This document shows positions 37,959 to 62,677 of a stretch of DNA of 64,000 nucleotides, piece after piece. Position 1 is the first letter of the stretch; each line of letters begins with the position of its first letter. Source of the stretch: Actinopolymorpha rutila (GTDB lineage Bacteria; Actinomycetota; Actinomycetes; Propionibacteriales; Actinopolymorphaceae); the NCBI RefSeq assembly GCF_013407855.1, contig NZ_JACBZH010000001.1, positions 992,001 through 1,056,000 on the forward strand, written 5' to 3'. The notes under the pieces were generated by a model, which did no database searches, was not told the DNA's origin, and saw only the letters and a program-made list of their open reading frames with translations. A program made the position numbers and the translations under genes.

Positions 37959-38145
37959 CGCGTTCTCCGTTCGGTGAATGGGTTTGCTGCATGGCTGGAT
38001 CGGACGAGACCCAGCGTGCGGCGCGGGCGCCCTCTCCGGCGTCGGCGTACGGGTGGATGTCCGGGTGGAACCTTCTCGGTGGCCGCCCGCGGGCTCCACC
38101 CGTGGGTGGAGGACCTGCCGCGAACGGCGTACTACCGTGGTCGCC

Positions 38146-39447
38146 GTGCCCGCTGACCCGCTCTCGGCCACCGCCTTCGCGTCCCGATCTCGTGCGCAAG
38201 GTGCCGATCCGCAAGGCGCCGACACAGACAGCGCCGACACGGACCGCCGGCGACCCGTGCCTCGGTGGTTGCGGCCGACCGGGATCGCGCTCCTCGTCGT
38301 CGTGATGGGCCTGACCCTGCGCGACCGGCCGGGCCTGGACGCAGCCGGTCTCGGCGTACTCGCCCTCGCGGCGACGGCGGCGGTGGCCGTCGGTGGCGCC
38401 GGTCTGCTCATCGAACTGCCCCGTGGCCGGCCGGCCTGGCTGACCATCGCCCTCTTCACCCTGCTGATCGGCGGCTCGGTGGTGGTCGTGGCGATCGAGC
38501 CGGACGGGCCGGGTTTCGTAGGCGGGTTCGTCGCCACCAGCGTGGCCGCCTCGAGCCTGTCCCGGCGGCCCGGTCAGGTGGTGGTGGCGTTCACCCTGGT
38601 CGGCATCGCCGTCGCCGGGCACTTCGGCGGGCACCGGCCGTGGACGACGATCCTGGTCGCGGAGGCCGGCGCGCTGGCGTTCTTCCGGCTCGGGCAGTAC
38701 GCCCGCCGGCTGCGCGCGCGGACCGAACAGGCCGAACGCCTGCTGGCCGAGGTCCAGCGCACCCGGTCCGCACACGTGCGCGCGGCCACCCTGGCCGAAC
38801 GCCAGCGGCTCGCCCGGGAGATGCACGACGTGCTGGCCCACTCGCTGTCCGGGCTGCTGCTGCACCTGGAAGGTGCCCGGCTGCTCGCTGTGCGCGAGGG
38901 TGCCAACCCGCGGTTGACGGATTCCCTGGAACGCGCGCGCGGCCTGGCCCAGGCCGGACTCGGCGAGGCGCGGCAGGCGATCGGCGTACTCCGGGACGAG
39001 GACCTGCCAGGGCCGGACGGCCTGCCGGTGCTGGCGAAGGAGCTCGAGCGCGACCTGGGGATCGACTGCCGGGTCGAGGTGTGCGGAACGCCGTACGAGC
39101 TGGGTCCGCAGACCAGGCTGACGTTGTACCGCGTGGCGCAGGAGGCGCTGACGAACGTACGCCGGCATGCCCGCCCGGAGCGCGTGGACGTACGCCTGAG
39201 CTACCAGGCCGACGGCTCCCGGCTCGTCGTCGAGGACGTCGCCGCCTCCGCCACGTCCGCTCCACCTGACGAAACCGACCCGGCTCCCGGCTACGGCGTG
39301 AGCGGCATGCGCGAACGTGCCGAACTGCTCGGCGGCGAGCTGACGGCCGAGCCGACCTCGACCGGCTTCCGCGTCACCCTCTGGCTGCCCGCGCGCGACG
39401 GCGACGGTGACGTGCCGGCGCGCGGCCACGGCGAGGTGCCGGCGTGA
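38146..39447 (+). CDS. NarL-type sensor histidine kinase with degenerate G1 box
   Basis: The 433-aa kinase (GTG 38146; GTG 38137 also possible) has four or more membrane helices (residues about 48-175) and HisKA_3 with LAREMHDVLAHSLSGLLLHLEGARLL. The HATPase domain has the N box QEALTNVRRHARPE and the G2 box GYGVSGMRERAELLGG. The G1 motif, normally DDGxG, is replaced by VEDVAASATSAPPDETD, so ATP binding may be altered. The stop overlaps the regulator start (GTGA). Confidence 0.88.
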   Translation: MPADPLSATAFASRSRAQGADPQGADTDSADTDRRRPVPRWLRPTGIALLVVVMGLTLRDRPGLDAAGLGVLALAATAAVAVGGAGLLIELPRGRPAWLTIALFTLLIGGSVVVVAIEPDGPGFVGGFVATSVAASSLSRRPGQVVVAFTLVGIAVAGHFGGHRPWTTILVAEAGALAFFRLGQYARRLRARTEQAERLLAEVQRTRSAHVRAATLAERQRLAREMHDVLAHSLSGLLLHLEGARLLAVREGANPRLTDSLERARGLAQAGLGEARQAIGVLRDEDLPGPDGLPVLAKELERDLGIDCRVEVCGTPYELGPQTRLTLYRVAQEALTNVRRHARPERVDVRLSYQADGSRLVVEDVAASATSAPPDETDPAPGYGVSGMRERAELLGGELTAEPTSTGFRVTLWLPARDGDGDVPARGHGEVPA

Positions 39448-40160
39448 CCGGCGAGGTGCGCGGCAGGACCGAACCGATCCGGGTGCTGCTCGCCGACGAC
39501 CAGCGCGTCGTACGCGAGGGCCTGGCCATGCTGCTCGGCCTGCTGCCCGGCGTCGAGGTGGTCGGCACCGCCGCGGACGGCGAGGAGGCGGTCGACCTGG
39601 CCGCGCGGCTGCACCCGGACGTGATCCTGATGGACCTGCGGATGCCGCGCTGCGACGGAATCGAGGCCACCCGCCGGCTGCGCGCGGAGCCCGGGGCGGG
39701 TCAGGTGATCGCGCTGACGACGTACGCCGACGACCGGTCCGTCCTCGACGCGCTCCGCGCAGGTGCGCGCGGCTACCTCACCAAGGACGCCGGCGCGGAG
39801 GAGATCCGGGCCGCGCTGGTCCAGGTCGCCGACGGCCACGCGGTGATCGACCGGGCCGTCCACCACCATCTCGTCGACGCGCTCGGTGCCGGGCCGTCAG
39901 GCAACGAAACGGGTTCGGCGGCGAGCCCGCCGCTCGCGCGCCCGGACGGGTTGACGCCGCGCGAGGCCGAGGTGCTGTCGCTGATGGCCGAGGGACTGTC
40001 GAACGCCGAGATCGCGGGCCGGCTGGTGGTGGGTGAGGCCACCGTGAAGAGCCACATCAACCATCTGTTCGCCAAGCTGGGGGTGCGCGACCGGGCCCAG
40101 GCCGTGGCGTACGCCTACCGGCGAGGTGTCGTACCGCCGCCCGGCACCTCAGCTACCTGA
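39444..40160 (+). CDS. NarL/LuxR-family response regulator
   Basis: The 238-aa protein has a receiver domain (LLADDQRVV, phosphoacceptor in LMDLRMPRCDG, switch threonine in ALTTYAD, lysine in LTKDAG). After a glycine/serine-rich linker a LuxR helix-turn-helix follows (LTPREAEVLSLMAEGLSN... ATVKSHINHLFAKLGV). It is the cognate partner of the kinase at 38146. Its 3' end overlaps the convergent folD-like gene by 12 bp. Confidence 0.92.
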   Translation: MTGEVRGRTEPIRVLLADDQRVVREGLAMLLGLLPGVEVVGTAADGEEAVDLAARLHPDVILMDLRMPRCDGIEATRRLRAEPGAGQVIALTTYADDRSVLDALRAGARGYLTKDAGAEEIRAALVQVADGHAVIDRAVHHHLVDALGAGPSGNETGSAASPPLARPDGLTPREAEVLSLMAEGLSNAEIAGRLVVGEATVKSHINHLFAKLGVRDRAQAVAYAYRRGVVPPPGTSAT

Positions 40161-41048
40161 GGTCCGGGCCGCGGCGAGGGCGGTGTGCCGGTGCAGCAGC
40201 GCCGTGGTCACCGGGCCGACACCTCCGGGCACGGGTGTGAGCGCTCCCGCCACCGCCGCGACGGCCGGGTCGACGTCGCCGACCAGGCCGCCGTCCGGCG
40301 TCGGGTTGGTGCCGACGTCCACGACGACCGCGCCGGGGCGTACGTGGTCCACGCCGATCAGCCCCGGACGCCCGACGGCCGCCACCAGCACGTCTGCCTC
40401 CCGGCACAGTGCGGGCAGGTCGGCCGATCGGGAGTGGCAGACCGTCACGGTGGCGTGCTCGGCGAGCAACAGCAGCGCGGCGGGCTTGCCCACCACCGTC
40501 GAACGACCGACCACCACGGCGCGCCGGCCCGCGAGCGGCACCTGCTCGTGGCGCAGGATCTCCACCACCGCCTGTGCGGTCGCCGGTGCGAACGCCTCCA
40601 CCGAGCCGGCCGCGAGCAGCCCCAGCGAGGTCGGGTTTGCCCCGTCGACGTCCTTGTCCGGTGCGATCGCCGCACCGAGATCGGCCAGGGTGACCCCGGC
40701 CGGCAGCGGGGTCTGGCAGATCACCCCGTGCACCGCGGGGTCGGCAGACCTCGCGGCGAGGTGGCCGGCGAGGGTCGCCGCGTCGGCGCCGTGCAGGGTG
40801 TCGACCAGGCAGGTGATGCCGAGCCGCTTGGCCGCCCGGGCGATGGAACGGACGTACCAGGCCGTTCCCTCGTCGTCGGTCGGGACCACGACGGCGAGGG
40901 TGGGAACGATTCCAGCCGCCGTCAGCCGGGCCACGTCGGCGGCGGTTCGCTCGTCGAGTTCCGCGGCGACCGCGCGTCCGTCGATCCGGTCGGCCGTCCG
41001 GCCAGTACGGGCCGCACCCCCGTCGCCGCTACCGGCGTTCGCGGTCAT
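40149..41048 (-). CDS. folD: FolD-like methylenetetrahydrofolate dehydrogenase, catalytic Lys missing
   Basis: The 299-aa protein matches FolD in VICQTPLP (Gln), PDKDVDGANPTSLG (Asp), VVVGRSTVVGKP (NADP loop), CHSRS and PGGVGPVTTALL. In the substrate segment, however, the usual Y-x-x-x-K becomes WYVRSIARAAK: Tyr65 is kept and the lysine position is Ile69. In characterised FolD enzymes this lysine is needed for the cyclohydrolase step, so this protein probably keeps at most the dehydrogenase. It is coupled by ATGA to the FchA-like gene upstream. A standard FolD may exist elsewhere in the genome. Confidence 0.88.
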   Translation of the reverse strand: MTANAGSGDGGAARTGRTADRIDGRAVAAELDERTAADVARLTAAGIVPTLAVVVPTDDEGTAWYVRSIARAAKRLGITCLVDTLHGADAATLAGHLAARSADPAVHGVICQTPLPAGVTLADLGAAIAPDKDVDGANPTSLGLLAAGSVEAFAPATAQAVVEILRHEQVPLAGRRAVVVGRSTVVGKPAALLLLAEHATVTVCHSRSADLPALCREADVLVAAVGRPGLIGVDHVRPGAVVVDVGTNPTPDGGLVGDVDPAVAAVAGALTPVPGGVGPVTTALLHRHTALAAARTSGS

Positions 41049-41713
41049 CGGCCGAGTTCCCGGCGGATGTCGGCGACCAGGGCGCGGCCCCGCTCGGTGA
41101 CGGCGAGGTGTTCCTCCAGATCGGCTGTCAACTCGGACTTGACATCGCTGTCGGGCAACGAGGACAGGTTGACCTCGACGTTGACCGCGGCGGAGTCAGC
41201 GGCGCCGGCGGCCGCCGCGGCGGCGACCGCGAGGTCGGAGACCACCTGCGGGTTGGACCGTCCCCGCAGCGACTCGGCCAGCGCCACCACGTCGGCCGCG
41301 GCGGCCGCGATCGCCAGCGGCGGCAGGGCCGCGGCGTGGGTCGCGGACCGCGCCGCGTCGCGGCGGGCCGTGCGCTCCTCCTCGGTCGTACGGGGAAGGC
41401 GGTAGGCCGTCATCAACGCCGTGAACGCCGCCTCGTCCTCCCTGCCCAGCCGCAACGCCTCCGCGCGCAGCGCGTCGGCCCGCTCGCGCACCTGGATCGC
41501 GTGCTCCTCATGCGCGGCGTGGACCGGCTTGCCGATCGTCAGGTTGGTCACCATCGACACCAGCGCCGCGCCGATCGCGACCTGCATGGCCGCAGCAGCG
41601 CCACCACCGGGTGCCGGGTCCGCGGATGCCAGGCGTTCCAGCCAGCCGGCGATCGTGTCGGCGTTCGTGTCGGCTTTCGTACTCGAGCCGTCCATGCCGT
41701 CCATGCCGTCCAT
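41045..41713 (-). CDS. Cyclodeaminase/cyclohydrolase (FchA-like)
   Basis: The 222-aa protein belongs to the FTCD C-terminal/FchA family. The hallmark is PAPGGGAAAAMQVAIGAALVSMVTNLTIG near the N-terminus, and the remainder is helical. Members hydrolyse 5,10-methenyl-THF or deaminate formimino-THF. The ATG at 41713 is first of three in a tandem MDGMDGMDG repeat, with GGAGG six bases before it. It overlaps the FolD-like gene, whose cyclohydrolase residue is missing. Confidence 0.88.
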   Translation of the reverse strand: MDGMDGMDGSSTKADTNADTIAGWLERLASADPAPGGGAAAAMQVAIGAALVSMVTNLTIGKPVHAAHEEHAIQVRERADALRAEALRLGREDEAAFTALMTAYRLPRTTEEERTARRDAARSATHAAALPPLAIAAAAADVVALAESLRGRSNPQVVSDLAVAAAAAAGAADSAAVNVEVNLSSLPDSDVKSELTADLEEHLAVTERGRALVADIRRELGR

Positions 41714-41767
41714 GCGGTCCTCCCGTCCTGGCGCGACGCCGCGCGCGAGCAGGATAGTGCCCGTAGC

Positions 41768-43306
41768 TCAGGACGCCGGAAGCCGGACGAGGAACGTCGT
41801 GTCACCCGGCCGGCTGCTCACCCGTACCGTCCCGTGGTGAGCGTCAACCACGGCTTGCACGATGGCGAGGCCCAGCCCGGTGCCTCCGCTGGCGCGGGTG
41901 CGCGAGGTGTCGGCACGGTAGAAGCGGTCGAAGACGTGATCGACCGCGACCGGGGGCACACCGGGCCCGTCGTCGTGCACCTCGACCAGCGCGCCACCCG
42001 TGCCGTCACCGTCACCGTCACTGTCGCCGACGCCGGGTCCATGGCCGTCGCCGTCACGCACCCGCAGGTCGACGACGGTGCCCTTCGGTGTGTGGGCATG
42101 GACGTTCGCGAGCAGGTTGGCCAGCACCTGGCGCAGCCGGCCCTCGTCCCCGTTCACCACGAGCGGGTCGGCGGGCAGGTCCAGCCTGATCGGGCGGTCC
42201 TCGTCGCGGACCCGGAAGTCGCTGGCGGCGTCCACCGCCAGCCGGCACAGGTCGACCGGCCGGTGGTCGAGCGGGCGGCCCTGGTCCAGCCGGGCGAGCA
42301 GCAGCAGGTCGTCGACCAGCAGGCTCATCCGGTTCGACTCCTCCGCGATCCGGCGCATCGCCGTGCCGAGTTCGGCGAGGTCGAGGTCGTGGGCGGGTTC
42401 GAGGGTGCCGTCGCGGTCCCGGGTGGAACGGTCGAAGAGTTCGGCGTACCCACGTACGGTCGAAAGCGGTGTCCGCAACTCGTGCGAGGCGTCGGCGATG
42501 AACTGCCGCAGTTGGCGTTCGGCCTTGTTGCGTGCCTGGAACGACGCGTCGATCGCCTCCAGCATGTGGTTCATGCCCGAGCCGAGCTGACCCACCTCCG
42601 TCTGCGGCGGCAGCACCGGCGCCCGCAACCGCACCGCGGCCTCCGGGCCGGTGAGGTCGGTCTCGGCGATCCGCCGGGTGGTGGTGGTCATCCGGCCCAG
42701 TGGAGCCAGGCCGACCCGGATCAGTATGGAGCCGAGGATCGCGGTGACCACCAGCCCGGCAAGGCCGACCGCGACCTCGATGAGCACCAGTCTGCGCACG
42801 GTGTCCTTCAGCCACCGCAACGGCACGCCGACGACCAGCCGGGCGCCGTTCTTGAAGTCCGTGGCCACCAGGCGGTACGGACCTGGCAGCACGGAGTCCT
42901 CGAACGTACGCGGAGCAGAGACGGGCACTTCCTTGGCAAGCCTGACCTGCTCGGCATGCGACAGGTCCCGCACGTGCTCGGTCGTGCCGCGGGTCGTGGG
43001 CAGCATCGCCGACCGGCTGCCGTCGGCACTCACCACGAACCGGACCGCGTCCTGGGGCGGGATCTGCACGTGGTCGGCGTCGTCGTCCCCGTGCAGGAGC
43101 GCGTCCCTGGTCTGCCCGGCGACCTGGCGCAGTTGACCGTCGGTTCGATTGAGCAGGTACGTCTCCAGCGCGTGGGTCGTCGCCACCCCGCCGGCCGCCA
43201 GCACTCCCGCGGTGAGCAGCAGCACGAGGGCGAGGACACGACGCCGCAACGGCTGACGGGCGAAGAATCCTCGCGTCGCCGAGTAGAGCGAACGTCGACG
43301 TCTCAC
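41768..43306 (-). CDS. PhoR/OmpR-type sensor histidine kinase
   Basis: The 512-aa kinase has two membrane helices (about residues 24-45 and 175-198) around a periplasm-like sensor region, then a HAMP linker (LAPLGRMTTTTRRIAETD). The HisKA box is FIADASHELRTPLSTVRGYAELF. The HATPase motifs are LANLLANVHAHTPKG, VHDDGPGVP and GTGLGLAIVQAVV. An acidic glycine-rich insert with a DGDGDG run lies in the ATPase domain. Its GTG start overlaps the regulator stop, so the two are co-transcribed. Confidence 0.92.
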   Translation of the reverse strand: MRRRRSLYSATRGFFARQPLRRRVLALVLLLTAGVLAAGGVATTHALETYLLNRTDGQLRQVAGQTRDALLHGDDDADHVQIPPQDAVRFVVSADGSRSAMLPTTRGTTEHVRDLSHAEQVRLAKEVPVSAPRTFEDSVLPGPYRLVATDFKNGARLVVGVPLRWLKDTVRRLVLIEVAVGLAGLVVTAILGSILIRVGLAPLGRMTTTTRRIAETDLTGPEAAVRLRAPVLPPQTEVGQLGSGMNHMLEAIDASFQARNKAERQLRQFIADASHELRTPLSTVRGYAELFDRSTRDRDGTLEPAHDLDLAELGTAMRRIAEESNRMSLLVDDLLLLARLDQGRPLDHRPVDLCRLAVDAASDFRVRDEDRPIRLDLPADPLVVNGDEGRLRQVLANLLANVHAHTPKGTVVDLRVRDGDGHGPGVGDSDGDGDGTGGALVEVHDDGPGVPPVAVDHVFDRFYRADTSRTRASGGTGLGLAIVQAVVDAHHGTVRVSSRPGDTTFLVRLPAS

Positions 43307-43998
43307 GAAAGCGGTGGGCGGAGGACGTAGCCGACACCGCGAACCGTGTGGATCAGCGGCTCGGCGTCGACGTCGATCTTGCGGCGGAGGTAGGAGATGT
43401 AGAGCTCGACCACGTTGGCGTTACCGCCGAAGTCGTAGTTCCACACCCGGTCCAGGATCTGCGCCTTGGACAACACCGTGCGGGCGTTGCGCATCAGGAA
43501 CCGCAGCAGTTCGAACTCCGTCGGGGTCAGCTCGATCAGCCGGTCACCGCGGCGTACTTCGCGGGAGTCCTCGTCGAGCATCAGGTCGGCGACCCGCAGG
43601 CCGGTGCCGCGGGGCATCGTGACGGTCGCGCGGCGCATGACCGTGCGCAGCCGGGCGATCAGCTCCTCCAGGCTGAACGGCTTGGTGACGTAGTCGTCGC
43701 CACCGATGGTGAGCCCGCGAACACGGTCCTCGGTGGCGTCGCGGGCGGTGAGGAAGATGACCGGCGCGTCCACCCCTTTGGCGCGAAGTGCCGCGAACAA
43801 CGCGAAACCGTCGGTGTCGGGCAGCATCACGTCCAGCACGATCGCGGACGGCTCGAAGTCGCGGGCCTGGGTCAGCGCCTGGTCGGCGGTGCCGGCGACC
43901 ATGGTGTGCCAGCCTTCGTACCGCAGCGCGGAGGCGATCATCTCGGCGAGGTAGCGCTCGTCGTCGATCACCAGCACCCGCACCGGCGGCTCGGCCAT
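43303..43998 (-). CDS. OmpR/PhoB-family response regulator
   Basis: The 231-aa protein is read from the ATG at 43998; a GTG at 44076 would add 26 residues without clear homology. It has the receiver domain (VLVIDDERYL, VLDVMLPDTDG, FLTARDA, VTKPFSLEEL) and a C-terminal winged helix (LIELTPTEFELLRFLMRN, VVELYISYLRRKID, TVRGVGYVLRPPL). It forms an operon with the kinase at 41768 and faces the divergent ferric-reductase-like operon, a plausible target. Confidence 0.93.
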   Translation of the reverse strand: MAEPPVRVLVIDDERYLAEMIASALRYEGWHTMVAGTADQALTQARDFEPSAIVLDVMLPDTDGFALFAALRAKGVDAPVIFLTARDATEDRVRGLTIGGDDYVTKPFSLEELIARLRTVMRRATVTMPRGTGLRVADLMLDEDSREVRRGDRLIELTPTEFELLRFLMRNARTVLSKAQILDRVWNYDFGGNANVVELYISYLRRKIDVDAEPLIHTVRGVGYVLRPPLS

Positions 43999-44161
43999 GG
44001 TGGCCCGTCCGGCCTGTGCGGGTTCGGTTCGTGCCGTACCGGCCGAATCCACAGAATCTCCTCGTCGGGCTGCCACGCCGGCAGGCGCCGGCGCGGGTCC
44101 CCCGCGTCTCTACTACACACCTTCGCCGTCAGGGCTGAGAGTCTGGTGTGGGTTTCCTGTG

Positions 44162-44199
44162 CGTTCACTGTGAACGTGGAGCCGGTCGGCGAGGTTCAC
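44162..44199. promoter_or_regulatory. GTTCAC palindrome and repeat in the divergent intergenic region
   Basis: CGTTCAC, T, GTGAACG (44162-44176) is a 7-1-7 palindrome. A further GTTCAC lies at 44194-44199, 31 bp (about three helical turns) from the first. CCTGTG (44156-44161) and CACAGG (44197-44202) also flank it as an inverted pair. It lies between the two-component genes and the ferric-reductase-like operon and is a plausible regulator-binding region. Confidence 0.6.
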
Positions 44200-44257
44200 A
44201 GGGGGCGGACAGGATCGTCACCGGGTTCCCACAGGTCGGTCGGCCACGGTGGTGTCC

Positions 44258-45586
44258 ATGCGAGCTCTGATCGTGCGGCACTCGCCGTGGCTGGTGTGGG
44301 CCGGGGTCGCCGCGGGCGCCGCGGCCCTGACCCTGCTGTGGTGGACCAGCACCCTTCCACCCACCTCCTTCGGCGGGCAGCTGACCGAGGCGGGCCGGCT
44401 GACCGGGCTGTTCGCCGGCTTCCTGGTGGTGATCCTGCTGGTGCTGATGGCCCGCCTGCCGGTGCTGGAACGCCAGGTCGGCACCGACCGGCTGGCCCGG
44501 ATCCACAGCATGGTCGGACGGTACGTCGTGTGCATGACGGTCGCGCACATGGTGCTGATCTGGCTCGGGTACGCGATGACCGCGCACGCCGGTCTCGGCG
44601 CGGAGGTGACCGACCTGCTGACGGGGTACCCGTACGTCCTGTGGGCGGTGATCGGCGCGGGACTCTTCGTGCTGGTCGGGGTGGTCTCGGCCACCGCGAT
44701 CCGCACCCGGGTGAGCTACGAGACGTGGTACCTCGTGCACCTGCTGACCTACGCCGGCATCGCGCTCGCGTTCTGGCACCAGATCCTCACCGGTGCTCAG
44801 TTCGTGTCGAACGGCGTGGCGCGATGGGGCTGGATCGGCGCGTACGCCTGTGCGACGGCGTTGCTGCTCTGGTACCGCCTCGTCGTCCCGGTCCGCAACG
44901 TCTGGCGGCACCGGCTGGAGGTGGCCGCTGTCCGCACCGAGGTGCCCGGCGTGGTGTCGGTCTACCTCTCCGGTGCCCGGCTGGACGACCTCGGCGCGGA
45001 GGCCGGGCAGTTCCTGCGGCTGCGCTTCCTCACCCGGAACGAGTGGTGGCAGTCCCATCCGTACTCGCTGTCCGCGGCGCCCAACCCGAGCTGGCTGCGG
45101 GTGACCATCAAGGCACTCGGTGACCACACCGAGCAGCTGCAGCGGATCCGGCCGGGCACGAGGGTGCTCGCCGAGGGTCCGTACGGCGCGCTCACCGCGC
45201 GGCGGCGCAGCCGGCACGGCGTGGTGCTGATCGCCGGCGGGGTCGGGGTGACCCCGCTGCGCGCGTTGTTCGAGTCGCTGCCGGCGGAGGAGGGCAGGCT
45301 CACCCTGATCTACCGCGCCAGCAAACACGAGGACGTGGTGTTCCGGCACGAGCTGGACGAGATCGCCGCGGACCGGCGGGCGGTCGTGCACTATCTGGTC
45401 GGCCCGCCCGGCCCCGGCCAGGAACCCGCGCTGCACCCGAACTGGCTGCGCCGCCTGGTGCCCGATGTCGCCGAGCGCGATGCCTACCTCTGCGGGCCCG
45501 GCGGGATGATGACCACCGCGATCGAGTCGCTGCGGGAGTGTGGGGTTCCCGCGCGGCGAATCCACCACGAGGACTTCAGCTTCTGA
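44258..45586 (+). CDS. Ferric-reductase-like transmembrane flavoprotein
   Basis: The 442-aa protein is read from the ATG at 44258 (the GTG at 44249 is alternative). Residues about 8-215 hold six helices with the haem-binding histidines of the ferric reductase domain (RIHSMVGRYVVCMTVAHMVLIWLG, WYLVHLLTYAGIALAFWHQIL). A FAD domain (HPYSLSAAPNPSWLRVTIK) and an NAD domain (GGVGVTPLRALFESL, ERDAYLCGPGGMMT) follow. It moves electrons from NAD(P)H across the membrane. It is the first gene of the operon with the FMN-binding protein and ApbE. Confidence 0.9.
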   Translation: MRALIVRHSPWLVWAGVAAGAAALTLLWWTSTLPPTSFGGQLTEAGRLTGLFAGFLVVILLVLMARLPVLERQVGTDRLARIHSMVGRYVVCMTVAHMVLIWLGYAMTAHAGLGAEVTDLLTGYPYVLWAVIGAGLFVLVGVVSATAIRTRVSYETWYLVHLLTYAGIALAFWHQILTGAQFVSNGVARWGWIGAYACATALLLWYRLVVPVRNVWRHRLEVAAVRTEVPGVVSVYLSGARLDDLGAEAGQFLRLRFLTRNEWWQSHPYSLSAAPNPSWLRVTIKALGDHTEQLQRIRPGTRVLAEGPYGALTARRRSRHGVVLIAGGVGVTPLRALFESLPAEEGRLTLIYRASKHEDVVFRHELDEIAADRRAVVHYLVGPPGPGQEPALHPNWLRRLVPDVAERDAYLCGPGGMMTTAIESLRECGVPARRIHHEDFSF

Positions 45587-46188
45587 TGAAACGCATCGTG
45601 CTCACCGCGCTGACCACCATCACCGGAATCGTGCTGTTGCTGGGGGTGAAGTCACAGACCGGCGCGCCGGGCCTGGCCACGGCCGCCGCGCCGGGCGCCG
45701 GTTCGGGGGCGACCGCCACCAAACGTACGCCCACACCCGAGGCGACGCCGACCCCGACGGCCACCGGTAAGCCCACCCCGAAGGGCGAACCGACCCCGCG
45801 CAAGAAGAAGTTGACGGCGACGAAGAAGCCGTCGACCAAGGCGAAGACGACACCCAAGGCGAAGCCGAAGGCCGCGCCGAAGAAGGTTGCCCCGAAGCCC
45901 AAGCCCGTCACGAAGATGAAGGTGGCGGGAAAGACCGCGGACACGCAGTACGGACCCGTGCAAGTGCAGGTCACGATGACCGGGCACACGATCACCAACG
46001 TCACGGCGCTGCAACTGCCGGGCGGCAACCAGCGAAGCTCCGAGATCGCCGGGTTCGCGGCTCCCCAACTGCGCCGGGAGGCCCTGTCCGCGCAGAGCGC
46101 CCACATCGACAGCGTGTCCGGTGCGACCTACACGAGCCAGGGCTACATCACCTCGCTGCAGTCCGCGCTCGACAGGGCCGGCGCGTGA
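45586..46188 (+). CDS. Extracytoplasmic FMN-binding protein with SGAT flavinylation motif
   Basis: The 200-aa protein starts one base into the upstream stop (TGATG). It has a signal or anchor (ALTTITGIVLLLGV), a long lysine/proline/threonine-rich spacer (residues about 38-110, rich in TPTP and KPK), and an FMN_bind domain from about 118 to the end. Within it SGAT at 178-181 is the ApbE-modified motif, with Thr181 as the covalent FMN site. I infer that it accepts electrons from the upstream flavoprotein outside the membrane. Confidence 0.85.
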   Translation: MKRIVLTALTTITGIVLLLGVKSQTGAPGLATAAAPGAGSGATATKRTPTPEATPTPTATGKPTPKGEPTPRKKKLTATKKPSTKAKTTPKAKPKAAPKKVAPKPKPVTKMKVAGKTADTQYGPVQVQVTMTGHTITNVTALQLPGGNQRSSEIAGFAAPQLRREALSAQSAHIDSVSGATYTSQGYITSLQSALDRAGA

Positions 46189-46940
46189 GCGCGGCGACGA
46201 CCCGTGGCCCGATCCGTCATGTGGAGTACGTGATGGGTACGGCTGTCACCATCGACGTCCGCGATCCGCGGGTGGGAGCCGGCGCGGTGGACGCGGTCGT
46301 CAGCTGGCTGCACACCGTCGACGCGACGTTCAGCACCTACCGTCCCGACAGCGCGATCAGCCGGCTCGACCGCGGCGAGGTCGGGCTGGCCGACTGCCCG
46401 GACACGGTCCGGTCGGTGCTGGCGCGGTGTGAGGAACTGCGGGTGGAGACCGTCGGCTACTTCGACCCGAGGTACGCGGGGCGGCTCGACCCGTCCGGGC
46501 TGGTGAAGGGGTGGTCGATCGAGCAGGCCGACCAGATCCTGCGGGCGGCCGGCTCGCAGGCTCACTGCCTGAACGCAGGTGGCGACGTCCTCGCCCGCGG
46601 CCGGCCCGAGCCCGGCCGGTGGTGGCGTGTCGGCATCGCCGACCCGCTCGACCGCAGCCGGCTGGCGACGGTGGTCGAGGGCGCGGACATCGCGGTCGCG
46701 ACGTCGGGCACGGCCGAGCGCGGCGCCCACGTCGTCGACCCGCGCACCAGTGAACCCGCCACCGGCTGGGCGAGCGTCACCGTCGTCGGCCCGGACCTGC
46801 CCACCGCCGACGCCTACGCCACCGCCGCGCTGGCGATGGGCGACCAGGCCCGTGAGTGGCTTGCCGGGCGCACCGGTTTCGAGGCGTACGCGATCGCCCC
46901 GGACGGCACCACCTGGGCCACGCCCGGCTTTCCCCGATGA
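46185..46940 (+). CDS. apbE: FAD:protein FMN transferase (ApbE)
   Basis: The 251-aa enzyme has the ApbE hallmarks: MGTAVTIDV, TYRPDSAISRLDRG, FDPRYAGRLDPSGLVKGWSIEQADQIL, the magnesium-site NAGGDVLARG, ATSGTAERGAHVVDP and DAYATAALAMG. It covalently attaches FMN to threonine or serine in SGAT-type motifs, here most likely to the neighbouring protein. The GTG start overlaps the preceding stop. No signal peptide is seen, so modification may occur inside. Confidence 0.92.
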   Translation: MSAATTRGPIRHVEYVMGTAVTIDVRDPRVGAGAVDAVVSWLHTVDATFSTYRPDSAISRLDRGEVGLADCPDTVRSVLARCEELRVETVGYFDPRYAGRLDPSGLVKGWSIEQADQILRAAGSQAHCLNAGGDVLARGRPEPGRWWRVGIADPLDRSRLATVVEGADIAVATSGTAERGAHVVDPRTSEPATGWASVTVVGPDLPTADAYATAALAMGDQAREWLAGRTGFEAYAIAPDGTTWATPGFPR

Positions 46941-58966: not shown

Positions 58967-61900
58967 TCAGCCGCCGGAACGAGGTTCGACGGTGACGGTC
59001 GCCTCCGCGGTGGTGTCGTCGACGGTGAGACGCAAGGTGACCTTGCCCTGCCGGTACGCCGTGAGCGTGCCGGTGCGCGGGTCGAGCACCGCGATGTGGC
59101 CGGGCTGCCGGTCGGCGGGGTCACCGATCCAGACGTTGTCCGACCCGCTCCAGCGCGAACTCATCGGGTACGCCACCGGCATCGCCTTGCCGTGCTGCGT
59201 CAAGGATGCCTTGACAGCGGTCGACGAGCCCGCGGCCAGGCGATCCGGAGCGGTCACGGTGAGAGCGTCGACGTGCGGGCGCACCTGTGCGCTCACCCAG
59301 TCCGGAGCGTCGCGGACCGGGTCGCGGCGCGCGGCGGCGGCCTCGTTCGGCGTCACCGGGTCCACACCCCACAACGACCAACCGGTGAAGCCGCCGTCCT
59401 CGGGCCGGGTGGAGGGAGTCTTGGCGGAGTTGCCGTTGACGAAGTACGGCACACCGTCCACCCGGTCGGCGTGGAAGGTGCCCACGTGCCCGCCGATGAA
59501 CGCCGTACCTTTGCCGGTCGTGCGCTGGAAGTCCGACAGCCACCGCTCGATGGTGGCGGCCTCCTTGCGGTCGGCGAGCTCGCTGGCCTTGCTCGGCGTC
59601 GGGTCGCGCGGCGGGACGTGCTGCACCAGCACCACCGACCCGACGTCCGGGTCGCCGGCGGCCGCGTCGAGCTGGCGGCGCAGCGTGCGCAGCTGCGTCC
59701 AGTCGCTGCCGCGGATCGACAGCCGGGAGGTGTCGAAGGTGAGGAACCGCGTGCCGTGGTGGTCGAATACCCGGCTGGTGGCGCCGAACTCCGCCTCGAA
59801 GTTGGCGATGTCGCCGCCCATCACCTCGTGGTTGCCGGGCACGTAGTAGTACGGCACCGTGCCGCCGAGCTCCTCGTCCAGGACCTTCTTGGCGAACGCC
59901 AGGTCTTCCGGTGATCCCTCGTCCACGAGGTCGCCGGCGATGACCAGGAAGTCCGGCCGGGCGGCCCGGATCTCCCGCAGCGTGCGCCGGGCGAACTTCA
60001 CCAGGTCGCTGTCGGGATCGCGGGCGACGAACTGCGCGTCCGACATCACCGCGAACCGCCAGGGCTGCCCGCTGACGTCGGCGTTCTGCGCGATCAACGG
60101 GTCCTTGCGGATCGGCTGCGCCGGTACGTCGACCGACGGCGGCACCAGGGCGGTGAGCTGGTCGATCACGATGCTGCCCTGGTACTGCTGGTCCGGCCGG
60201 GTCTCGGCGGAGTAGTAGCGGCGAAGCCGCAGCGGATACTGCGTGCCCGCGGGTACGGGGAACTCCAGCTGCTGCCAGCCGGATCCGGTGAGGTAGCCGG
60301 CGCGCATCGCGGGGAGCAGTGTCCCGGCGCCGTCGTACACCTGCAGGCTCGCCCACTCGCCCTTGCCGGTGGAGTTGACCCACAGCCGCAACGCCCGCGG
60401 CCGGCCGGGGATCTCCACCGTGCCGGTGGGTACGGCACCGCCGGTGCGGGTCGCGGTCGAGGTGGAGAAGTCGTAGTCCAGCCGGAGTCCCTTGCCCACC
60501 TTGCCCTCGGCGGAGCTGACCGAGCCGGTGGCGCGTTCGCCGAAGAAGCTCCACGCCGACGCGTCCTCGAAGTCGGCGACGACCTTCTCCTCCAGGCCGA
60601 CGGTGACCGGGAAGACCGTGCCGACCTTCCCGCCAGCGACGTTCACGGTGGCGGTGACCAGTGCGGAACCCCTTGCCTGCTTGGCGGTCACGACGTACTG
60701 GCCGGTGCCGTCGGCGGAGATGTCGAGCAGGTCGTGGTCGTAGTCGAGGGTGATGTCGGCGGGTTCGATCGGCGCTGCGTACCCCTCACGGTCGTAGCCG
60801 AGGATGCCGAGCCTCGCGTGGTCGCCGGCCTCGGGCAACGCCACCTGGTCGACGGTCGGGCCGAGCCGGTTGAGCGGGCGCAGCACCTGCAGGGTGGTCG
60901 ATCCGGTGACGTCCCGGTCGTACGCGGTGACCGTGGCGGTGCCGGTGTTGCGGGCGCGGAAGACGCCGTCCCGGTCGACGGTGCCCGCGCCGCTGGTGCG
61001 CCAGCGCGGGGTGCTCTTTGCCGGGCCGTAGGTCTCGTCGTACCCCGTGGCGGTCAGCCGACGGGTCAGGCCGGGAAACACCCGGTCGGGACGGGCCGGT
61101 GCGACCGTGGACGAGCCGGCCGCGCGCTCGGGATCCAGGGCGGGCTCGACCCACAACCCGCGCAGGTGACCCGAACCCTTCGGCGCGAACAGGCCGAGGC
61201 CGTTCGGGTCAAGGCGTTCGCTGCCGTCGGAGGGGTGGTTCTCCACCCGCACAGTCTGCTCTCCCGGCTTGCGGGCGACCATCGTGGTCGATCCGCCACC
61301 GTCGAGGTTGACCGCGTTGTAGGCGCCGAGCTCGACCATCAGGTCGGCGAGCTCGTCCAGCCCGAGCCCGTCGGAGAAGGCCGGTTGGCGCCCGTCCGCG
61401 GCGAGCAGGAACATCTTCGTGCCGTCGCGGGAGAAGCCGACCGCGGTCCGCGGCGCGGGCGGAACGTTGTTGCCCGCACTGGCCTTCTGCGCGACGCCGT
61501 TGACGACCAGGAGTTGACGGCCGTTCAGTGCGGTCCGGATCTCCTTGTCGTCGGCGGTCCTGGCGCGGTAGTCGATGCTCACCGGCGCGCCGACGGTGAG
61601 CGCGGCCAGCGTGTCCGCCCCGGCCTCACGGCCCACCAGGACGAACCCGTCGGCGGGAACCTCACCCGAGCCCGCGCTGTCGCGCACCGCGGTGACCTTG
61701 CCGCCGACCACTTCCACCTCGGCCACCTTCGTCGCGCCGGTGGTGGCCCGGCAGCGGCAGTAGCTGCCCCACAGCGGGGTGAACGCCTCGATGCCGTCGG
61801 TGGGCAGGGTCGGCTTGTTGACCCCGGCCAGCGGGGCCGTCCGGTCGCCCGGCAGCGCGATGGTGCCGGTGAAGAACACCGAACCGATGCTGCCCAGTCC

Positions 61901-62551
61901 CTCGGGGGTGATGATGGCCGCGGACTTCTGCCAGGTGGGGGCGGCGTCCGGCGACTGGAGCAGGGTGCCGTCCTTGATGCCGACACCGAGCGGCGCGTTG
62001 GAGTTGTTGATGTCGAAGAAGTCGCCGTTCACCGCGGCGACCGCGCCGGCCTGCTGCGCCTGCTCCGAGATCGGCGCGCCCGAGGCGACCCGGCCCGGGA
62101 AGAGGTAGCCGACCGAGGTCCCCTTGGTGAGGTCGACGGTGAGCGAGTCCGACTGCAGCCAGTTCGCCGTGCCGGTGTAGGTGTCCGGGCCGTACCGGTC
62201 GAACGACCGCAGCGTCACTCCGGGCGCGACCGGCCGGGAGGTGCTGTCCGTCTCCAGCCGGGGAGCGACGTCGGCCGCCCGCGGCGCCTGGGCGGCACGT
62301 CGGTCGGCGGTACCAGCCGGATGGTCGGCGGCGTCGGAGGTGGCCGAGTGCAGGTCGTACCGCGGGTCCGGCCGTACGCCCTGTGTCCGTGCGTCCTGTG
62401 CCCGTGCGTCCTGCGCTGGTGTGCCCTGCGCCGAGACCGTCGGCGGCGATCCGGTGGCGGTGCCTCCGGCCGCCAGCCCGACCAGGACCGTGCAGCCGGC
62501 CAGGAGCGAGGCGAAGGTACGCAGGCGCACGCGGGTCTTGGTCGAAGCCAC
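58967..62551 (-). CDS. Secreted phosphodiester glycosidase and metallophosphoesterase fusion
   Basis: The 1194-aa protein starts at a GTG behind GGGGAGG at 62551 and has a signal region (FASLLAGCTVLVGLAAGG). Residues about 85-430 match the phosphodiester glycosidase (NAGPA) domain (VAAVNGDFFDINNSNAPLGVGI, GLDELADLMVELGAYNAVNLDGGGSTTMV). Beta-sandwich and carbohydrate-binding-like parts follow. A calcineurin-like metallophosphoesterase sits at about 835-1065 with VMSDAQF, VIAGDLVDEG, VPGNHEVMGG and FIGGHVGTFH. A Big-like C-terminal domain ends it. The first metal motif has Gln where His is usual. It probably releases sugar phosphates from extracellular phosphodiesters. Confidence 0.88.
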   Translation of the reverse strand: MASTKTRVRLRTFASLLAGCTVLVGLAAGGTATGSPPTVSAQGTPAQDARAQDARTQGVRPDPRYDLHSATSDAADHPAGTADRRAAQAPRAADVAPRLETDSTSRPVAPGVTLRSFDRYGPDTYTGTANWLQSDSLTVDLTKGTSVGYLFPGRVASGAPISEQAQQAGAVAAVNGDFFDINNSNAPLGVGIKDGTLLQSPDAAPTWQKSAAIITPEGLGSIGSVFFTGTIALPGDRTAPLAGVNKPTLPTDGIEAFTPLWGSYCRCRATTGATKVAEVEVVGGKVTAVRDSAGSGEVPADGFVLVGREAGADTLAALTVGAPVSIDYRARTADDKEIRTALNGRQLLVVNGVAQKASAGNNVPPAPRTAVGFSRDGTKMFLLAADGRQPAFSDGLGLDELADLMVELGAYNAVNLDGGGSTTMVARKPGEQTVRVENHPSDGSERLDPNGLGLFAPKGSGHLRGLWVEPALDPERAAGSSTVAPARPDRVFPGLTRRLTATGYDETYGPAKSTPRWRTSGAGTVDRDGVFRARNTGTATVTAYDRDVTGSTTLQVLRPLNRLGPTVDQVALPEAGDHARLGILGYDREGYAAPIEPADITLDYDHDLLDISADGTGQYVVTAKQARGSALVTATVNVAGGKVGTVFPVTVGLEEKVVADFEDASAWSFFGERATGSVSSAEGKVGKGLRLDYDFSTSTATRTGGAVPTGTVEIPGRPRALRLWVNSTGKGEWASLQVYDGAGTLLPAMRAGYLTGSGWQQLEFPVPAGTQYPLRLRRYYSAETRPDQQYQGSIVIDQLTALVPPSVDVPAQPIRKDPLIAQNADVSGQPWRFAVMSDAQFVARDPDSDLVKFARRTLREIRAARPDFLVIAGDLVDEGSPEDLAFAKKVLDEELGGTVPYYYVPGNHEVMGGDIANFEAEFGATSRVFDHHGTRFLTFDTSRLSIRGSDWTQLRTLRRQLDAAAGDPDVGSVVLVQHVPPRDPTPSKASELADRKEAATIERWLSDFQRTTGKGTAFIGGHVGTFHADRVDGVPYFVNGNSAKTPSTRPEDGGFTGWSLWGVDPVTPNEAAAARRDPVRDAPDWVSAQVRPHVDALTVTAPDRLAAGSSTAVKASLTQHGKAMPVAYPMSSRWSGSDNVWIGDPADRQPGHIAVLDPRTGTLTAYRQGKVTLRLTVDDTTAEATVTVEPRSGG

Positions 62552-62677
62552 GGGTTCCTCCCCAGGGATGCCGGACGGCACCTCGCAGTGAACTAGACCC
62601 GGAAGCGACTTTCCAGACTTCGGCCTGAAGCGGAAGAAAACTCCGCGTGGCGAGCAGGGGGAGGAAGACGCCGGGCG

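Follow-up and report, generated by a model that had tools for sequence, protein, structure and literature searches.

The stretch of DNA analysed here (64,000 nucleotides of Actinopolymorpha rutila, contig NZ_JACBZH010000001.1, positions 992,001 to 1,056,000; hereafter the window) carries on its minus strand two overlapping genes of folate-dependent one-carbon metabolism. The upstream gene codes for an FchA-like methenyltetrahydrofolate cyclohydrolase and the downstream one for a protein of the FolD family, here called FolD', in which an isoleucine stands in place of the catalytic lysine of the bifunctional dehydrogenase/cyclohydrolase FolD. Their features, in window coordinates, are the following (THF, tetrahydrofolate):

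41045..41713, minus strand: gene for the FchA-like methenyl-THF cyclohydrolase, 222 amino acids, P0002 (PF04961, 174 bits)
40149..41048, minus strand: gene for FolD', a FolD-family protein of 299 amino acids, P0001 (PF00763 and PF02882, structure model)
41045..41048, minus strand: ATGA, by which the FolD' start overlaps the FchA stop by 4 bp (read from the sequence)
40842..40844, minus strand: ATC codon of Ile69, in the column of the catalytic lysine, Lys54 of E. coli FolD (alignment)
40713..40715, minus strand: codon of Gln112, which pairs with the lysine in ordinary FolD and is retained in FolD' (alignment)
41718..41724, minus strand: GGGAGGA, a Shine-Dalgarno-like motif ahead of the FchA start ATG at 41713 (read from the sequence)

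The initial annotation had described FolD' as fused with the cyclohydrolase and also as overlapped by an upstream gene of the cyclohydrolase family; the second description holds and the first does not, the two proteins being encoded by separate genes joined at the ATGA. Only a weak GGGA was seen before the FolD' start, so that translation of FolD' is probably coupled to that of FchA.

FolD' carries both Pfam domains of FolD (PF00763, 81 bits; PF02882, 182 bits), and its AlphaFold2 model (mean predicted local distance difference test score, pLDDT, of 91.5) has FolD 4b4u as its best Foldseek match, with a template modelling (TM) score of 0.88. Fold and domains are those of a bifunctional FolD; the lysine of the YxxxK motif is absent, and none of 25 NCBIfam FolD models (25 of the 30 matched are listed) reaches its cut-off, the best score being 254.5 bits against 411. 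The Arg and Ser of the GRS...CHS motif are retained, which suggests the use of NADP.

Several alignments agree in placing residue 69 of FolD', an isoleucine, in the column of E. coli Lys54. The initial annotation had pointed to an isoleucine at the lysine of Y-x-x-x-K, and this reading is confirmed. A shift of the alignment restoring a lysine, which it had named as a possible refutation, was rejected: all alignments keep Ile69 in the Lys column and the only lysines of FolD' are at positions 74, 132 and 188. Lysine 132 is shared by both kinds of FolD, column 188 has Lys or Arg in both, and at column 74 a Lys occurs in no more than 4 of the 121 Ile/Leu relatives, a number that refers to distinct proteins with duplicates merged. 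The active-site residues shared with bifunctional FolD and MTHFD1 are well conserved in these 121 proteins (Tyr65 in 117, Gln112 in 120, Asp133 and Asp135 in 121), as are Arg182 and Ser206 of the NADP site (120 and 113). That all other FolD signatures are kept, as the initial annotation also stated, did not stand, since besides the exchange of the catalytic Lys for Ile 13 further columns separate the Ile/Leu proteins from the Lys/Gln FolDs, with changes such as QLPLP to QTPLP, CTP-G to ATA-A, GPMT to GPVT and DG-HP to DG-NP.

FolD' is present in 55 of the 296 genomes of a class sample, in which it was delimited by score (247 bits or more, against 209 or less in the next group) and not by residue. 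Ile or Leu occupies the Lys column in 55/55 of these proteins, and in 30/30 and 17/17 rows of the supported branch that contains the window protein in two trees built without that column; Lys occupies it in E. coli and in all 40 sampled ordinary FolDs of the class. With a clade defined independently of the Lys column, the sharing of Ile/Leu is not a matter of chance.

The partner gene is the single PF04961 match in the window's genome. The sole NCBIfam match of its product is the FchA model NF045657, with 174 bits, below the cut-off of 275 bits for FchA equivalogs, and for that reason the protein is filed here as FchA-like. Across 72 aligned sequences (the window and 71 partners), PxPGGGA (33-39), Asp93, Tyr104, Asn154, Asp160 and Asn178 are each conserved at 95% or more.

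Searching genome contigs with FolD' gave matches in 324 stretches, 183 of which encode relatives; the best 80 are referred to as named loci. The initial annotation had proposed to compare FolD-like proteins with and without an adjacent FchA-like gene, and among the named loci this comparison separates 71 FchA-adjacent loci without the lysine from 9 non-adjacent loci that have it. In the 71, all actinobacterial (Actinopolymorpha, Glycomyces, Amycolatopsis, Micromonospora, Streptomyces, Geodermatophilus, Jiangella and other genera), FchA lies directly upstream on the same strand, and no lysine is seen in any of the 71 FolDs, which have Ile or Leu instead; one of them, L110, comes from a frame-broken draft and is scored as without the lysine on its broken read. 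The other nine are from Bacillota, with no FchA in the fetched stretch, and the genome of one (L100) has two PF04961 matches elsewhere. The stop and start codons of FchA and FolD' overlap as NTGA in 65 of the 71 relatives. When the window was compared with 29 loci picked from different genera or lineages, the only families common to 30/30 were FchA, FolD' and the open reading frames antisense to both.

Wider sampling revealed other ways of breaking the pair formed by the catalytic lysine and its glutamine. A phylum sample (Actinomycetota, 396 genomes, 133 with PF04961) was read at its 30 best-scoring loci; 28 stretches contain a FolD, none being obtained at L012 and L031, and the Lys and Gln columns hold Val/Leu in 23 and Ala/Phe in 5. 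A further sample of 249 genomes around one Bacillota genome, 146 with PF04961, was read at 70 FchA loci. FolD is encoded in the stretch at 30 of these and absent from it in 20 of the first 30 and 20 of the further 40 loci; apart from an unscorable fragment (L246), the 29 proteins have Lys/Glu (14), Ala/Phe (8), Ala/Met (5), Ala/Leu (1) or Leu/Leu (1). The Lys/Glu proteins have the motif VELPLP or IELPLP and the gene order folD-fchA (L241, L242, L249, L307, L308, L318, L321, L329, L332, L335, L336, L339, L343, L344). A strict rule by which FchA means loss of the lysine was rejected, as these 14 FchA-adjacent FolDs keep Lys and have Glu for Gln, an exchange that may also stop the cyclohydrolase.

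In all, 261 distinct FolDs were read, with identical ones merged. FchA lies on the same strand in the stretch of 158, of which 157 can be scored, and none of the 157 retains both Lys and Gln: 100 have Ile or Leu with Gln, 43 have lost both and 14 have Lys with Glu. Both residues are present in 82 of the 103 FolDs without FchA in the stretch. The other 21 comprise 18 of family f92, those of genomes G050 and G235, with FchA at another place in the genome, and an extra copy from Nocardia aurea, whose other FolD' adjoins FchA. Flanks were short for some loci (about 1 kb for 40, 300 bases for 12), and whole-genome positions of PF04961 likewise place none beside the FolDs of these short-flank loci.

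Among the 55 genomes with FolD' in the class sample, 37 hold PF04961; its coordinates place it next to FolD' in 35, and in G050 and G235 it lies on a different contig. In these two genomes the sole FolD (L167 and L161, respectively) lacks the lysine and has Leu, and the two genes of the pair can be unlinked. The 18 genomes without a PF04961 match, all of family f92, limit the interpretation; the second FolD match that each of them has, which bears the lysine in the 17 read, one per genome (G478 unread), counts in its favour. Their own FolDs without the lysine (L165, L168, L172-L184, L128, L130, L139) include two with Phe for Tyr (L128, L130) and one with both Tyr and Gln changed (L179).

The strongest argument comes from genomes in which FolD' is on its own. 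It is the sole FolD in 9 of the 55 class-sample genomes (G050, G235, G410, G442, G508, G532, G607, G618, G642), G050 being counted despite one further match far below the cut-off, and likewise in Glycomyces arizonensis and Amycolatopsis decaplanina. FchA is present in 11/11 of these genomes. Formate-THF ligase (Fhs) is over its cut-off in 0/11, with one sub-threshold match in G532; among the 15 genomes tried for this enzyme it is over the cut-off in one. If FchA were removed, these 11 genomes would thus be left with no route to 10-formyl-THF by a Lys-bearing FolD, FchA or Fhs, the enzymes for which searches were made.

On this evidence FolD' and FchA very probably divide between them the two activities of bifunctional FolD. 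FolD' is best read as a predicted monofunctional, NADP-type methylene-THF dehydrogenase. It would oxidise 5,10-methylene-THF to 5,10-methenyl-THF with NADP+ and, having presumably lost cyclohydrolase activity with the lysine, would leave the methenyl ring closed. Hydrolysis of methenyl-THF to 10-formyl-THF would then fall to FchA, which is probably translated from one transcript with FolD' through the codon overlap. The initial annotation had suggested such a split of the bifunctional activity, which finds support in the presence of FchA at 71/71 of the named loci without the lysine and in all 11 of the only-FolD genomes.

A number of observations weigh against this division of labour. An intact ordinary FolD (YVRGK, with Gln) is encoded in the window's own genome (L001, G000:C1:2255820-2256665), with no FchA in its stretch; the need for a split is not evident there, and since that FolD is present the pair is an extra module in this genome and not a forced partition. 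Several of the 11 only-FolD genomes are incomplete drafts, down to 87%, whose assemblies may have missed a second FolD or Fhs. The association within the class sample between having only FolD' and having FchA (9/9 against 28/46, Fisher p 0.023) is uncorrected for kinship among related sequences. FchA is not adjacent in G050 and G235, and the FchA cut-off is missed by the window protein. In human MTHFD1, finally, the lysine aids substrate binding for the dehydrogenase reaction, and whether it acts catalytically in the second step is a matter of debate (PMC9173628).

The last point touches the possibility that FolD' is still bifunctional, with another residue or water replacing the lysine and FchA merely adding rate. 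One candidate is column 75, on the same helix, which holds Lys in 86 of the 121 Ile/Leu proteins and Arg in 20; the window protein has Arg. The lysine of MTHFD1-type enzymes is said to act with Gln in the dehydrogenase step and perhaps in proton transfer in the cyclohydrolase step (PMC3368264); in a computational study of MTHFD2, where its role in the cyclohydrolase step is disputed, a catalytic role is not excludable and a binding role was seen in the dehydrogenase step (PMC9173628). A comparison of the 121 proteins with Lys/Gln FolDs, however, yielded no lysine that all members of the clade share and ordinary FolDs lack, and a bifunctional enzyme would not require the FchA found in every only-FolD genome. 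We regard a bifunctional FolD' as unlikely.

P0002 could instead be a formimino-THF cyclodeaminase of the type of the FTCD C-terminal domain, making methenyl-THF that FolD' would reduce to methylene-THF in a salvage of formimino groups; PF04961 is named for this activity, and the missed FchA cut-off would agree with it. The nearest solved structure is nevertheless the methenyltetrahydrofolate cyclohydrolase 7vg4 (115 bits), ahead of FTCD (60) and 1o5h (44). Such a role is also made improbable by the absence of the formiminotransferase domain PF07837 from 22/22 genomes searched, including the window's own, and it would leave the 11 only-FolD genomes without a recognised cyclohydrolase; we therefore consider it very improbable. 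The least probable account is that FolD' is a decaying or moonlighting paralogue, non-catalytic in this genome and able to persist there because the reactions are carried out by the ordinary FolD. Besides the presence of that enzyme, the persistence in family f92 of FolDs without lysine or FchA, some with altered Tyr or Gln, speaks for it; the near-complete conservation of Tyr65, Gln112 and Asp135, the frequency of the NTGA overlap and the 11 genomes in which such a protein is the sole FolD speak against it.

A tree built without the Lys and Gln columns has four well supported clades (Ile/Leu, Ala, Val and Lys/Glu) on an unresolved backbone, with the Leu/Leu protein L337 inside the Lys/Glu clade. 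Tests of a sole origin rejected neither a single clade of all FchA-partnered FolDs (approximately unbiased test, p-AU 0.391) nor a single clade of all those lacking the lysine (p-AU 0.316), and repeated independent losses of the lysine are consequently not established. As the loci are related and single-clade trees are not rejected, the counts of FolDs given above are not counts of independent events.

Gene neighbourhoods offer a hint as to the use of the pair. In 12 of the 71 loci, from Geodermatophilus, Modestobacter, Amycolatopsis and Saccharopolyspora, it belongs to a cluster of dimethylglycine/sarcosine type, with a serine dehydratase gene and a PurU-like gene downstream; folP is found in 11 of the 12, a dimethylglycine-oxidase-like gene in 11, and soxA and soxG, for sarcosine oxidase subunits, upstream in 10 (L064, L073-L076, L078, L080, L081, L083, L092; partly L069, which is cut upstream, and L097, which is without folP and a full soxA). 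Pfam scans of the cluster were made on single representatives, the GntR regulator being scanned in L064 alone, and since the flanks extend to at most 6 kb remoter clusters would be missed. Sarcosine oxidase yields methylene-THF when THF is present and PurU is a formyl-THF deformylase (PMC3691474). The oxidases of these loci are expected to form methylene-THF and the PurU-like protein to use 10-formyl-THF, so that the two intervening steps would be those of FolD' and FchA. Their placement in these 12 loci suggests that one-carbon oxidation is one job of the pair, if not the only one. The window's own genome gave no sign of sarcosine or dimethylglycine oxidases, a search for GCV_T returning one strong and one weak match. 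Clusters known from Corynebacterium and Arthrobacter hold glyA, soxBDAG, sdaA and purU (PMC3534580, PMC3691474) and resemble the 12 loci in having soxA, soxG, serine dehydratase and purU as neighbours; in contrast to these loci, neither fchA nor folD is named in the passages that describe those clusters.

More broadly, and only tentatively, any FolD adjacent to FchA might have lost the bifunctional Lys/Gln pair, by one of several solutions (Ile/Leu with Gln, Val with Leu, Ala with Phe, Met or Leu, Lys with Glu, Leu with Leu). The actinomycete Ile/Leu form would then be a dedicated, coupled module of one-carbon oxidation, which in some genera would carry the methyl groups of dimethylglycine and sarcosine to formate via FchA and PurU and which in other species would have replaced ordinary FolD altogether.

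A dehydrogenase-only FolD working with FchA is not in itself new. In Clostridium perfringens, studied by Aluri et al. in 2016, FolD is reportedly a dehydrogenase only, FchA provides the cyclohydrolase, and both are said to be needed to replace E. coli FolD. The likeness to the pair described here lies in the reported dehydrogenase-only FolD accompanied by FchA; the window pair also shows the adjacency (4-bp overlap) and a broken Lys/Gln pair (Ile/Gln), and such a broken pair could serve to define FchA-paired monofunctional FolDs. C. perfringens differs in being an anaerobe with Fhs, an enzyme over its cut-off in only 1 of the 15 genomes tried for it here, and FchA-adjacent FolDs of Bacillota have Ala with Phe, Met or Leu, Lys with Glu or once Leu/Leu, whereas the actinomycete clade has Ile/Leu and keeps Gln. 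Yeast MTD1 (1edz/1ee9), found as a distant relative of FolD' (E 6e-21) and studied by Barlowe and Appling in 1990, is reportedly a FolD-related, monofunctional, NAD-dependent methylene-THF dehydrogenase without cyclohydrolase; it is eukaryotic and is not known to have an FchA partner. MtdA is not known as a close relative of FolD. In Methylobacterium extorquens, MtdA and Fch form a separate dehydrogenase and FchA-type cyclohydrolase (PMC9618320), an arrangement like that of the pair but in a methylotrophic context. Another paper names a separate FchA as an alternative (PMC7219735). A literature search over titles and the beginnings of abstracts, with most subscription journals outside its reach, showed among the entries listed nothing on FolDs lacking the lysine with FchA in actinomycetes or on the Lys/Gln pattern. 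The association is known from clostridia, and the actinomycete subfamily would be a new form of it.

The genes flanking the pair in the window are two-component genes:

41768..43306, minus strand: HAMP/HisKA sensor kinase gene, upstream of FchA with a gap of 54 nt (domain search)
43303..44076, minus strand: OmpR-type response regulator, overlapping the kinase gene (domain search)
39444..40160, plus strand: NarL-type response regulator, convergent with FolD' and overlapping its end by 12 bp (domain search)
37978..39447, plus strand: kinase ahead of the NarL-type regulator

Co-transcription of the upstream sensor kinase gene with fchA-folD' is possible. The two-component genes were rejected as general partners of the pair: homologues of the upstream kinase and regulator occur in 4 of the 80 named loci (L062, L065, L066, L106), with 32-43% identity (32-34% for the kinase) and well away from fchA-folD', and the NarL regulator/kinase pair is found near FolD' again only in an Actinopolymorpha locus, L034. 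There, in Actinopolymorpha pittospori (L034:7871-10062), the two genes (78% and 61% identity) lie downstream of FolD' and convergent with it, with one gene between. Elsewhere in the window, at 43303-46940, the OmpR regulator and its kinase are divergent from genes for a ferric-reductase-like protein, an FMN-binding protein and ApbE, which may together form a flavin electron-transfer unit; at 58967-62581 a protein of 1204 amino acids combines a NAGPA phosphodiester-glycosidase domain with a calcineurin-like phosphoesterase domain.

All 25 NCBIfam FolD models listed for FolD' carry the dehydrogenase/cyclohydrolase name, and annotation by similarity would therefore call this protein bifunctional. 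If the division of labour proposed here is true, the pathways modelled for such genomes are in error, and species like Glycomyces arizonensis have fchA as their sole recognised cyclohydrolase gene. These clades would also provide the oxidation steps that lead from methylene-THF to PurU in the dimethylglycine and sarcosine clusters, and they constitute a natural mutagenesis set for the disputed roles of the lysine and glutamine of FolD.

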